Below, in pieces: positions 1 through 5,770 of a stretch of DNA of 5,891 nucleotides. The first letter of the stretch is position 1, and the number at the start of each line of letters is the position of its first letter. Origin of the DNA: Deltaproteobacteria bacterium (GTDB lineage: Bacteria; Bdellovibrionota_F; JAHFAK01). Under the pieces are notes generated by a model. The model did no database searches and was not told the DNA's origin. It saw only the letters and a list, made by a program, of their open reading frames with translations. The position numbers were made by a program, and so were the translations under genes. The stretch spans positions 1-5,891 of the forward strand of contig JAHFAK010000123.1 in NCBI GenBank assembly GCA_023250585.1, in the 5' to 3' direction.

Positions 1-401
1 CAATTGGATCGGGAAAATTTTTTGGAAAAGGATTTTTATCCGGCACACAATCAAAACTCGAATTCGTGCCAAAACAGCATACGGACTTTATCTTTTCTGT
101 GTTTGCCGAAGAATGGGGATTTATAGGCACTTTTGTAGTTATTATGCTCTTTTTCCTGCTTGTTGTTGCTGGCTTTGGTGTTGCGGCTCGTGCGCGAGAT
201 AAATTTGGTTCCATCCTTGCATGTGGTATTACGTGTATGCTCTTTGCTCAAATCTTTGTTAATATTGGAATGGAGCTTGATATTCTTCCCGTTGTTGGCG
301 TTACGTTACCATTTTTTAGTTATGGCGGATCTTCGCTCATTATCAGTATGTTTGGTGTAGGATTACTTCTCAATATCAATATGCGAAGGCATATATTTTA
401 G
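1..401 (+). CDS. rodA: RodA, elongasome peptidoglycan glycosyltransferase (SEDS family), 3' part
   Basis: This is the C-terminal 132 residues of a SEDS protein; the 5' end lies outside the window and the reading frame is open from base 3. RodA polymerises lipid II into glycan strands with a class B PBP in the MreB elongation complex of the inner membrane. The visible segments are GSGKFFGKGFLSGTQS, then PKQHTDFIFSVFAEEWGFIG, two hydrophobic membrane spans, and the family's C-terminal signature NIGMELDILPVVGVTLPFFS followed by YGGSS. The HTDFIF and LPVVG wording fits RodA better than FtsW. The C-terminus (NMRRHIF) is of normal length. An ATG/GTG start near base 66 would be artificial because strong family similarity continues upstream. 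The TAG stop at 399-401 shares its last base with the palindromic element that follows. RodA versus a divergent FtsW is the only real ambiguity. Confidence 0.93.
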   Translation, partial: IGSGKFFGKGFLSGTQSKLEFVPKQHTDFIFSVFAEEWGFIGTFVVIMLFFLLVVAGFGVAARARDKFGSILACGITCMLFAQIFVNIGMELDILPVVGVTLPFFSYGGSSLIISMFGVGLLLNINMRRHIF

Positions 402-525
402 GGAACCTCTAGAAAGGCCCATCTGTGTCGTTGCACACAAGAGTCACAATCCTCACATACTATCTGAGTATGCTCCGGTTGTGACTTTGCGTGCGCCTTA
501 CATCTGCACCTTTCTAGAGGTTCCC
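401..525. repeat. 125-bp structured palindromic element, copy 1
   Basis: The element begins on the G of the rodA stop codon and has a three-part fold. The outer stem is a perfect 17 bp (401-417 with 509-525, GGGAACCTCTAGAAAGG and its complement). The middle stem is about 15 bp (433-449 with 479-494), with one bulged G at 441 and one A-C mismatch. The tip is a 6-bp stem (456-461 with 467-472) closed by a 5-base loop. Between the stems lie motifs also present in copy 2: CATCT, TCGTTG, AATCCTCA, CTCCGG, CGCCTT and ATCTG. It separates convergent genes (rodA and the pseudouridine synthase), so it could block or end transcription from both sides, but no U-run follows the stem in either direction. 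No transposase is nearby. A short extension of the outer stem into flanking bases (394-400 with 526-532, one G-T pair) is visible here but not in copy 2. Confidence 0.9.
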
Positions 526-551
526 TGAAATACGAGTTTTTCAGAGAGTCC

Positions 552-2916: not shown

Positions 2917-3501
2917 ATGCAACGGAATTTTTTATTAAGAATTAGTTTATTATCGTTTCTTCTCGTTCTTTCATGTGGTGGCAAAAAAGAAATCTATAAA
3001 ACAGGCGGAAACCCTCCTGCATGGGTAACCAAAGGAAGCGGAGCTTTTGATACCGGAAAAACAAAAGTTATATATGGAGTAGGTGTGATCAGTAAGGATC
3101 CCAATCCCATGCTTGAACGAAAAGCGGCATCAAATCGTGCCCTCGCTGAAATTGCAACAACGCTTAATACACAGGTTGCAAGTCTTATGAAGGATTTTAT
3201 GGAGTCTCATAAGGATTATACTAATCTTGAAGCAAGTGGATCAGTTGAATTTGTTTCCAATATTTCAAAAACCGTTACCGATGCGAATTTGGTCGGAGCT
3301 CAAATCATTGATTTTTGGCGAGATGATTCGGGAAATCTTTATGCGTTAGCTTCTCTTTCCTATGATAGTGTTATTCAATCACTCAAAGATAAGGTTAAAG
3401 AAGCTCAAGACAAACAGGCGGTTTTCTTAAAAACAAAAGCCGACGAAGCAATGCAGGAACTCAATAAAGAACTTGATCATAAAAAACCCGCTACATTATA
3501 G
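2917..3501 (+). CDS. LPP20-family lipoprotein
   Basis: This 194-aa lipoprotein has signal peptide MQRNFLLRISLLSFLLVLSC with lipobox VLSC and lipidated Cys20. The mature part shows the LPP20 family order: PPAWV near residues 33-37, VIYGVGVIS at 51-59, ERKAASNRALAEIATTL at 67-83, a serine/valine-rich strand pair SGSVEFVSNISKTV, and the closing block GAQIIDFWRDDSGNLYALAS. A charged, probably coiled-coil tail follows (about 155-188). LPP20 proteins are surface or periplasmic lipoproteins related in fold to LpoB-type regulators; the function here is unknown. It is coupled to the upstream lipoprotein gene, which appears to carry a diverged copy of the same domain, so the two may pair or have arisen by duplication. 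The TAG stop shares its last base with the second palindromic element. Confidence 0.86.
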   Translation: MQRNFLLRISLLSFLLVLSCGGKKEIYKTGGNPPAWVTKGSGAFDTGKTKVIYGVGVISKDPNPMLERKAASNRALAEIATTLNTQVASLMKDFMESHKDYTNLEASGSVEFVSNISKTVTDANLVGAQIIDFWRDDSGNLYALASLSYDSVIQSLKDKVKEAQDKQAVFLKTKADEAMQELNKELDHKKPATL

Positions 3502-3625
3502 GGAACCTCTAAAAACTAGCCATCTACTTCGTTGTCCACAAATTCGTAATCCTCACGTATTACCATATACGCTCCGGTTTCGAATTTGTGGACGCCTTGT
3601 ATCTGGGCATTTTTTAGAGGTTCCC
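3501..3625. repeat. 125-bp structured palindromic element, copy 2
   Basis: This copy has exactly the same length as copy 1 (401-525) and also begins on the G of a TAG stop codon. The outer stem is 15 bp perfect (GGGAACCTCTAAAAA at 3501-3515 with 3611-3625), the middle stem 13 bp perfect (3534-3546 with 3581-3593), and the tip stem 5 bp (3556-3560 with 3567-3571) with a 6-base loop. The middle and tip stems differ in sequence from copy 1 yet pair fully. The loop motifs CATCT, TCGTTG, AATCCTCA, CTCCGG, CGCCTT and ATCTG are identical. It separates two co-directional genes, the LPP20 lipoprotein and the wall hydrolase, and leaves only about 31 bases before the hydrolase start. The hydrolase is therefore either read through it or transcribed from a start within it. 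Confidence 0.9.
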
Positions 3626-3642
3626 AAAAAAACATAGTTATC

Positions 3643-3648
3643 GAGGTG
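3643..3648 (+). promoter_or_regulatory. Ribosome binding site supporting a TTG start
   Basis: GAGGTG lies 8 bases before the TTG at 3657, and no ATG or GTG is available nearby in frame. This site and the hydrophobic N-terminus it exposes decide the start of the wall hydrolase gene. Confidence 0.65.
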
Positions 3649-3656
3649 CCCTATAA

Positions 3657-4907: not shown

Positions 4908-5294
4908 CTAGAGAAATACTTTATAATGTATATCCAAAACGCGTGCTAAACGTTGTGCCATTTTTTTACCAATAGGGCGCTTTCCTTTTTCCATTTTAGA
5001 GAGATTAGAAACATCAATGTTAAGCTTCGCTGCTAATTCCTTCTGGCTCAAGCTGAGTCTTTTACGTGCTCCTCGAAGGGCAATTCCCTGTTTCGTAAAC
5101 TTAGATATTCTTTCCTTTGCAATTTCCTCCCAGGAAATTTGTGAGGAAGAGGTATCAAAGCTAAATTCACGTAGAAGGTTAAGAACTAACTTAAGCCGAT
5201 TTTCAGCAACTACAAAGCTTTCGTTGAATTTTTCCGTGTGCAGGTAAATTTCTGCATCTACTTTAATAGGGTGCTTTTTCATGTGTACCGACAT
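4908..5294 (-). CDS. higA: XRE-family antitoxin (HigA-like)
   Basis: This 128-aa protein has a C-terminal Cro/C1-type helix-turn-helix: GARKRLSLSQKELAAKLNID then VSNLSKMEKGKRPIGKKMAQ, with SQKELAAKLNIDVSNLSKME (83-102) as helices 2-3. The first about 65 residues are a separate, mostly helical region without a recognised motif, probably the toxin-binding part. It overlaps the end of the toxin gene by 32 bases, the toxin-first order of HigBA/RelE-XRE systems. It should neutralise the toxin and repress the operon. I start it at the ATG at 5292-5294 because GGAGG (5301-5305 on the plus strand as CCTCC) lies 6 bases upstream. An upstream in-frame start at 5348 would add 18 residues inside the toxin gene. 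The HTH sits at the extreme C-terminus (ending HYKVFL), so DNA binding and toxin binding are in the reverse order to MqsA-like antitoxins. Confidence 0.85.
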   Translation of the reverse strand: MSVHMKKHPIKVDAEIYLHTEKFNESFVVAENRLKLVLNLLREFSFDTSSSQISWEEIAKERISKFTKQGIALRGARKRLSLSQKELAAKLNIDVSNLSKMEKGKRPIGKKMAQRLARVLDIHYKVFL

Positions 5295-5547
5295 AATAAA
5301 CCTCCACTCGTTTATGTTCTTTATCAATAACTTCCCAGCAAGCCACATATGTTGGTTTACGTTTACTTGGAGTTAAGTGACAATGATGTTTTATGGGCGA
5401 CAATTTACTGTAATGTTTCCAATTCCCTCTCACTGGTCCTATCTCCATGATTTCACAAACAAGAGTGTCAAAAATATCTTTAATGGATTCAGGAAGTTTA
5501 GTATAACTTTTTGCACTTCTATTATTGAGCACAACTTTCCATCCCAT
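5263..5547 (-). CDS. higB: RelE/ParE-superfamily toxin (HigB-like)
   Basis: This is a predicted 94-aa mRNA-interferase-type toxin. MGWKVVLNNRSAKSYTKLPE and GPVRGNWKHYSKLS are followed by KHHCHLTPSKRKPTYVACWE and the family's C-terminal VEVYYVGTHEKAPY. The His-rich CHL segment, the basic SKRK and the terminal THE are candidate RNA-binding or catalytic positions. Toxins of this fold cleave mRNA at the ribosome. The open frame extends to an ATG at 5640, with another ATG at 5565. I prefer 5547 because the family normally begins just before the W-K-V strand, and a good promoter at 5554-5582 would start transcription almost on this ATG. The antitoxin gene overlaps its end. Relatives of this subfamily are also found as toxins of orphan modules, and activity is not proven here. 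Confidence 0.82.
   Translation of the reverse strand: MGWKVVLNNRSAKSYTKLPESIKDIFDTLVCEIMEIGPVRGNWKHYSKLSPIKHHCHLTPSKRKPTYVACWEVIDKEHKRVEVYYVGTHEKAPY
5301..5305 (-). promoter_or_regulatory. Antitoxin ribosome binding site inside the toxin gene
   Basis: GGAGG on the minus strand sits 6 bases before the antitoxin ATG at 5294 and within the toxin coding sequence. It is much stronger than anything before the toxin start, which favours antitoxin synthesis over toxin from the same message. Confidence 0.7.
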
Positions 5548-5553
5548 TAAAGC

Positions 5554-5582
5554 AGTATAGGTCATTTTTTGACCATAGTCAA
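5554..5582 (-). promoter_or_regulatory. Toxin-antitoxin operon promoter
   Basis: On the minus strand, TTGACT (5582-5577, five of six) is followed by exactly 17 bases and TATACT (5559-5554, five of six). Predicted initiation falls at about 5547, on the A of the preferred toxin ATG, suggesting a leaderless or near-leaderless message. If so, the ATGs at 5565 and 5640 are not the main toxin starts. Confidence 0.6.
5560..5574. promoter_or_regulatory. Inverted repeat operator candidate in the TA promoter spacer
   Basis: GGTCA-TTTTT-TGACC is a perfect inverted repeat filling the spacer between the -35 and -10 boxes. A dimeric XRE antitoxin bound here would occlude RNA polymerase, the usual autoregulation of HigBA/RelE-type operons. 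The arms are only 5 bases, so binding is a prediction. Confidence 0.55.
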
Positions 5583-5688
5583 ATTTACTCAAAAATTGAT
5601 TCAATTTAGAGAGGTGGCTGAGAAATAATTTTAAATACATCCAGCATGTTTATGAACCTATGTGTTTATATCAATAATTATTTCAAGG

Positions 5689-5739: not shown

Positions 5740-5770
5740 CGTCATCCCGCGGCTTGACCGCGGGATCCAG
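5740..5770. repeat. GC-rich palindromic repeat (CGTCATCCCGCGG...CCGCGGGATCCAG type)
   Basis: The perfect 9-bp arms ATCCCGCGG (5744-5752) and CCGCGGGAT (5758-5766) enclose the loop CTTGA, with flanks CGTC and CCAG. Base composition is far more GC-rich than the surrounding DNA. From memory, near-identical palindromes recur in many copies in Rickettsia-like and other intracellular bacteria; this cannot be confirmed here. It supplies the last residues and stop of the minus-strand ORF beside it. Confidence 0.75.

Follow-up and report, generated by a model that had tools for sequence, protein, structure and literature searches.

Two hairpin elements in a 5,891-nt bacterial DNA stretch are probably copies of a non-autonomous transposon whose core recurs across phyla

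Results

Genes and hairpin elements in the window

The window analyzed here is the whole stretch of 5,891 nucleotides. It contains a rodA/ftsW-type gene with the stop codon TAG at 399-401, a convergent pseudouridine-synthase-like gene with its stop at 552-554, and a lipoprotein-like gene ending in TAG at 3499-3501. The minus strand carries a helix-turn-helix protein gene and a small neighboring gene (4908-5348 and 5263-5640), which from their translations look like a HigBA/RelE-type toxin-antitoxin pair. A short palindrome at 5740-5769, CGTCATCCCGCGGCTTGACCGCGGGATCCA, resembles a CGTC-tagged REP (PMC3733652); its relative at locus L028 (near 1928, minus strand), which has the same neighboring sequence, points to a second repeat family in the parent genome.

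The loop pattern TCGTTG-AATCCTCA-CTCCGG occurred twice in the window and in none of 200 shuffles. The regions 398-529 and 3498-3629 folded at -57 to -77 kcal/mol (z -9.3 to -12.6, either strand) and none of 200 shuffled sequences folded as well, so the two hairpins proposed in an earlier note on this DNA lie where it had placed them (z near -10). That note had taken each element to be 125 nt long. The interval delimits the hairpin, but the element does not end at 525 or 3625; the full elements occupy 401-551 and 3501-3651. The features are as follows.

401-551, plus strand: copy 1, full element, 151 bp, subfamily A (tip ACATACT..AGTATG); borders from the alignment of all genomic copies
401-525, plus strand: copy 1, three-tier hairpin (inverted repeat I1); fold z -10.6 (plus strand) and -12.6 (minus strand)
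428-499, plus strand: copy 1, core, with TCGTTG (428-433), AATCCTCA (448-455), CTCCGG (473-478) and CGCCTT (494-499)
526-551, plus strand: copy 1, right tail, conserved among subfamily A copies and ending in a further terminal repeat (TTTTTCAGAGAGTCC)
397-400, plus strand: copy 1, left flank TTTA; the right flank at 552-555 is TTAA, an imperfect duplication
3501-3651, plus strand: copy 2, full element, 151 bp, subfamily B (tip ACGTATT..ATACG); 83.8 bits with covariance model R1
3501-3625, plus strand: copy 2, three-tier hairpin; fold z -9.8 and -9.3
3529-3597, plus strand: copy 2, core, from TCGTTG to CGCCTT
3626-3651, plus strand: copy 2, right tail, ending ATCGAGGTGCCC
3497-3500, plus strand: copy 2, target duplication TATA; the second TATA is at 3652-3655

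Model R1 matched copy 1 with 83.5 bits (G000:C52:414-512). The stop codon upstream of copy 1 takes TA from the flank and G from the element, and the stop of the convergent gene lies exactly at the other border.

Copies in the parent genome

In the parent genome (2.24 Mb, 164 contigs), AATCCTCA..CTCCGG was matched without mismatch at 33 places and the reversed control pattern at none. The covariance model gave 41 matches, which puts the copy number at about 41, in line with the many copies that the earlier note had expected. Two tip subfamilies are present (ACATACT..AGTATG and ACGTATT..ATACG), and the window carries one of each. Alignment of all genomic copies showed the hairpin arm TTTTTAGAGGTTCCC followed by a conserved tail of ∼26 nt, either TGAAATACGAGTTTTTCAGAGAGTCC or AAAAAAACATAGTTATTAGAGGTGCCC, which closes with a further copy of the terminal repeat. 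Parent-genome copies outside the window measure 149-154 bp; the element has terminal inverted repeats (GGGAACCTCT) and no open reading frame inside. Flanking 4-bp A/T-rich direct repeats were exact in 15 of 32 cases (shuffled mean 2.06, maximum 7 in 5000 shuffles). The element is short, non-coding and multi-copy, with terminal inverted repeats and a target-site duplication, as MITEs are. We concluded that both window sequences probably belong to a MITE, a non-autonomous DNA transposon, the body of which forms a long hairpin; a non-autonomous element had been among the candidates named beforehand.

Several rearranged copies were observed. At locus L016 a minus-strand copy centered at 2517 joins the left part of subfamily A to the tail of subfamily B, which suggests recombination or template switching between subfamilies. 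Remnants were found at L140:1376-1460, L142:1888, L143:1962, L153:2037, L155:1932-1970 and L158:1975-2015; they comprise an element from which the hairpin has been lost, between CATCTGCATCGTTG and CATCTGG, and solo tails in which two terminal motifs stand in direct repeat ∼26 bp apart. The element ends of the parent genome resemble those in RIFCSPHIGHO2 'Deltaproteobacteria' MAGs (L048, L089). In the latter of these MAG loci, at L089:2826-3067, two element subfamilies lie adjacent in opposite orientation, flanked by two tRNA genes.

The same core in other bacteria

The common inner core consists of TCGTTG, AATCCTCAC, GCTCCGG and CGCCT around interchangeable stems. A scan of GTDB genomes with TCGTTG..AATCCTCAC..CTCCGG matched at least 106 stretches, of which a few tens are estimated to be chance matches and several loci are plainly coding. 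In 79 foreign matches CGCCT, which is absent from the search pattern, also stood in its proper position. The core was found in Beta-, Gamma- and Alphaproteobacteria, Bacteroidales, Bacillota (Alkaliphilus, Clostridium), Planctomycetota (Scalindua), Desulfobacterota (Syntrophus, Pseudodesulfovibrio), Chlorobiota and unplaced 'Deltaproteobacteria', that is, in at least seven bacterial phyla as counted from record titles. The similar AATCCTCA...CTCCGG palindromes that the earlier note vaguely remembered from other bacteria do exist. Of 58 other genomes, chosen to represent distinct families, 3 had matches to model R1; the lineage of the parent genome is almost unsampled, with the same class in only 1 of these 58 comparison genomes.

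Copy numbers per genome were at least 150 in Scalindua, 58 in Salinicola, 54 in Ca. Pullibacteroides, 36 in Paucibacter and 26 in Syntrophus. The Scalindua element has the same layout (terminal repeat, hairpin, inner repeat, ∼27-nt tail, terminal repeat); its ends differ (GTGTTTGAACG..CAC) and its duplications are 6-bp TANNTA, exact in 11 of 14. Salinicola copies have GGAAACACTGCATAAAT ends and target sites that include TTAG, CTAA and CTGA, and those of a betaproteobacterial MAG have CAGTCTGTTGAAAAGC ends with CTAG, TTAG, CTGA and ATAG (both sets of sites read by eye). The strict core pattern had no match in viral contigs, and copy 1 had no blastn match in plasmids. Two loci of genome G043, L162 and L169, carry a diverged version in which CGTCGTCA or TTCGTCA replaces TCGTTG and GGGAACC-type ends are absent, indicating that the search pattern does not cover the whole breadth of the core.

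Position at stop codons and operon junctions

In the parent genome a stop codon lay within 3 bp of the target center in 18 of 32 reconstructed insertions, against 3.6 expected from noncoding A/T-rich tetramers at the same loci; the 18 is an undercount, copy 2 having been missed through overlapping ORFs. A long reading frame ended at the left border in 17 of 19 Paucibacter, 9 of 25 Scalindua and 5 of 11 Salinicola copies (backgrounds 1-2.5%), these samples being the top-scoring copies and non-random. Left and right stop contacts numbered 16:4, 9:0, 17:6 and 5:3 (pooled 47:13, p 1e-5), with ORF-based gene calls that are unreliable on the right side in GC-rich genomes. The plus strand of the element mostly follows the direction of the gene (co-directional 47 vs. 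13). Homogeneous, apparently young Scalindua copies lie mostly away from stops, and retention as well as targeting may therefore act.

In Burkholderiales the element recurs at the same gene junctions across species, in every case co-oriented with the upstream gene: between ybaB and recR, between groES and groEL, after rubrerythrin, upstream of pyrC and after a gene ending in GKPVRN (gene names here and below read from translations). The mreB-mreC junction carries it in Burkholderiales and also in the gammaproteobacterium Billgrantia, and five Polaromonas-type loci and Acidovorax have it after a thiolase gene. Stems at orthologous junctions differ in complementary fashion, such as tip GACC/GGTC vs. 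GTAC/GTAC. At ybaB-recR the element was present in 5 of 28 readable Comamonadaceae loci, as two subfamilies, which indicates frequent gain and loss. One gene family had suggested that the outer arms reach into the final codons of the gene before them; over 43 loci the value was 0.246 vs. 0.288 by chance and the idea was dropped.

These placements could also be accounted for if the element acted chiefly in cis as RNA and tuned operon expression through a 3' untranslated structure to which a conserved RNA-binding protein or nuclease binds; mobility would then be secondary or ancient. Co-directional placement directly after stop codons speaks for it, and so do the shared junctions with compensatory differences in several genera (groES-groEL, mreB-mreC, ybaB-recR, pyrC, thiolase). 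We nevertheless consider it rather unlikely, as the target duplications are clear, many young-looking Scalindua copies sit off stops and the ybaB-recR element is missing from most Comamonadaceae loci; further points against it follow below.

Search for a transposase

In the 164-contig assembly we found no autonomous parent element with GGGAACCTCT ends and no transposase gene accompanied by the element ends, so the matching transposase sought on the suggestion of the earlier note did not come to light there. Nor did the analysis yield a protein that binds the loops. The parent genome gave no match to the DUF772/IS5-type transposase (PF05598), and the element ends are absent from its two DDE_Tnp_1 (PF01609) genes, on C103 and C116. 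Instead of a parent element, the PF01609 loci and solo terminal repeats yielded deletion scars from which the hairpin was deleted. Locus L108, with two inverted cores 1.5 kb apart, was considered as a transposase locus and rejected; ribosomal protein genes (rplL- and rplJ-like) lie between the cores instead of a transposase.

Mobilization through a hairpin had been the mechanism named for a mobile element in the earlier note. If this were of the IS200 or REP kind, the element would be of REP type, with a RAYT or a different HUH (Y1) transposase acting on its folded single strand. It is palindromic, extragenic and located 3' of genes, and 10 of 11 core-bearing genomes tested encode some Y1 protein. 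However, no core (R1) was present in 20 loci with Y1 transposase genes (86 kb, 8 core-bearing genomes), the genome of Ca. Pullibacteroides, with 54 copies, has no Y1 match, and an element of 110-151 bp with terminal inverted repeats and target-site duplications in place of a GTAG/CGTC tag (PMC3733652) does not fit. We regard a REP-type origin as highly improbable and hairpin-based mobilization of the IS200/REP kind as not supported.

Comparison with RNA families and terminators

At gathering thresholds Rfam 15 had no family in the window and found only tRNAs in 18 foreign loci, which also counts against a primary cis-acting RNA. Copies in the parent genome gave subthreshold matches to Clostridiales-1 (RF01699; PMC2864571) of up to 27 bits (E 6e-4 per genome). 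Membership in this family was rejected and has almost no probability: the gathering score of 48 bits was not reached, the branched model aligns with large deletions, and the core-bearing Clostridium, Alkaliphilus and Scalindua genomes had no match. A scan for intrinsic terminators detected no terminator-like site (stem plus T run) at either window element. Of the proposal that the hairpin is a widespread 3'-end RNA structure, the 3'-end location stands, given the stop contacts and junctions, and a role as intrinsic terminator is not borne out by the scan. Searches of the published literature by sequence string and by topic returned no description of the core, nor is it described in the publications consulted on REPs, stem-loop families and MITEs; neither these nor the Rfam 15 thresholds produced the fully described repeat family that might have explained the element.

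Stem covariation and fixed loops

Over 51 sequences and 14 pairs, 93% of cells were paired vs. 66% after shuffling, and 183 cells had changed on both sides. The covariation score was 0.662 vs. 0.169 for shuffled sequences (0 of 500 as good) and 0.06-0.13 for slid controls; the controls contain no model of relatedness and the figures are not probabilities. In an arm-swap test each arm paired better with its own partner, with z -7.7 (middle), -5.1 (tip) and -8.4 (outer) in the parent genome and -12.1, -13.2 and -23.0 in foreign copies. The covarying stems and frozen loops noticed in the two window copies are borne out by these results. The further step from covariation to selection for a folded RNA was not established: 660 pair cells are Watson-Crick and 4 are G-U (4 of 664 paired), with 20 further A-C cells. 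The asymmetry between G-U and A-C favored contradictory strands in different sequence sets, and an RNA strand assignment on this basis was dropped. The near absence of G-U pairs and the opposite strands indicated by different sets both weigh against a primary cis-acting RNA.

It has been documented that hairpins can arise and be preserved when the template is switched from one arm to the other as DNA replicates (PMC8794818), and repair of DNA palindromes in this way may drive much of the stem covariation. The scarcity of G-U pairs fits such template switching in DNA and is not what an RNA changing by way of G-U pairs would show, and covariation alone is therefore no proof of RNA function. Unpaired loops, on the other hand, would be the first target of template-switch correction, yet they are fixed, which argues for selection on the loops. 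The invariant loops are a better sign of selection than the stem covariation, although their invariance is in part a matter of ascertainment, since three of the motifs formed the search query.

It could be argued that the stems have no selected function at all, with covariation left by template switching, loops fixed by recent spread and stop contact reflecting survivorship in compact genomes. The 183 double changes beside 4 G-U cells, the documented action of template switching and the deletion scars without hairpin agree with this. We judge it quite unlikely, because loops that should be corrected first are unchanged across phyla with unrelated stem sequences, stop contact exceeds a noncoding, composition-matched null, and the orientation bias is left unexplained.

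Discussion

The explanation that we favor, and hold to be probable, is that the elements are non-autonomous transposons with a conserved hairpin read by a putative factor, and that cells tolerate them or have co-opted them as 3' mRNA structures. The ends would be recognized by a transposase supplied in trans, different between lineages, and the core loops would be bound by a widely conserved factor, either as DNA hairpin or as RNA; binding to the loops would keep them frozen while the stems turn over. An element inserted co-directionally and directly after a stop codon would leave both proteins intact. It would become a strong hairpin in the 3' untranslated RNA, which would do no harm and in certain operons would be kept, the likeliest reason being that it protects or separates the upstream message. 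The recurring junctions groES-groEL, mreB-mreC and ybaB-recR suggest such co-option in gene expression. Counting against this explanation, no autonomous element with these ends turned up in the 164-contig assembly, and the outer arms of Paucibacter vary from copy to copy with complementarity kept, which is odd if a single transposase must read the ends.

We put forward more tentatively, as a possibility that we would not bet on, that one hairpin module, with loops fixed in groups as far apart as Bacteroidota, Bacillota, Planctomycetota and Burkholderiales, is a portable cargo, which would swap outer arms for different transposases, be read by one conserved cellular factor and gain entry to genomes, or last in them, by docking one-way exactly at stop codons.

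Bacterial repeat families are normally bound to a genus or family, and here the core loops are constant over at least seven phyla with stems and ends turning over. Such constancy implies a widely conserved binding partner, and the loop alignment offers a set of recognition sites for fishing it out. Exact, oriented contact with stop codons makes the element well suited to studying how mobile DNA gets into dense operons without harming them. Because G-U intermediates are nearly absent, it can also serve to test for covariation that stems from DNA template switching and not from RNA selection.

Among known systems, the element start GGGAACCTCTGAAAAA with the 4-bp duplication resembles what we take to be the ends of the IS5 group, and IS5-like ends are presumably present in the parent genome and in Halomonadaceae; in contrast to that group, no DUF772/IS5-type transposase was found in the parent assembly. 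The Clostridiales-1 RNA (RF01699; PMC2864571) shows a weak covariance-model similarity to the element, but its model is branched and it is absent from other core-bearing genomes. Four candidate motifs of PMC2864571 that are rated 'ambiguous' as RNAs and have no Rfam entry (Burkholderiales-1, Desulfotalea-1, GUCCY-hairpin and Transposase-resistance) come from taxa that overlap with those of the core, a comparison made by name only, and may coincide with it. With these four motifs compared at that level, the best reading is a MITE with a trans-phylum hairpin core, apparently not described before.

REPs, including GTAG- and CGTC-tagged palindromes and those associated with RAYTs, are likewise palindromic, extragenic and downstream of genes across phyla (PMC3733652). 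They are 20-40 bp long with an unpaired tag at one end, the GTAG type having a Y1 transposase (PMC3733652), whereas the present element is 110-151 bp, has ends GGG..CCC, terminal repeats and duplications, and has neither a GTAG/CGTC tag nor a Y1 neighbor. Bacterial MITEs such as Correia/NEMIS, ERIC, RUP, Nezha and QMITE are closer, being also short, non-coding and multi-copy with a strong hairpin, terminal inverted repeats, target duplications and a frequent position 3' of genes (PMC10969869, PMC3733652). Those MITEs have been described genus by genus, whereas the element reported here combines one fixed-loop core across phyla with differing ends and duplication lengths and with contact to stop codons.
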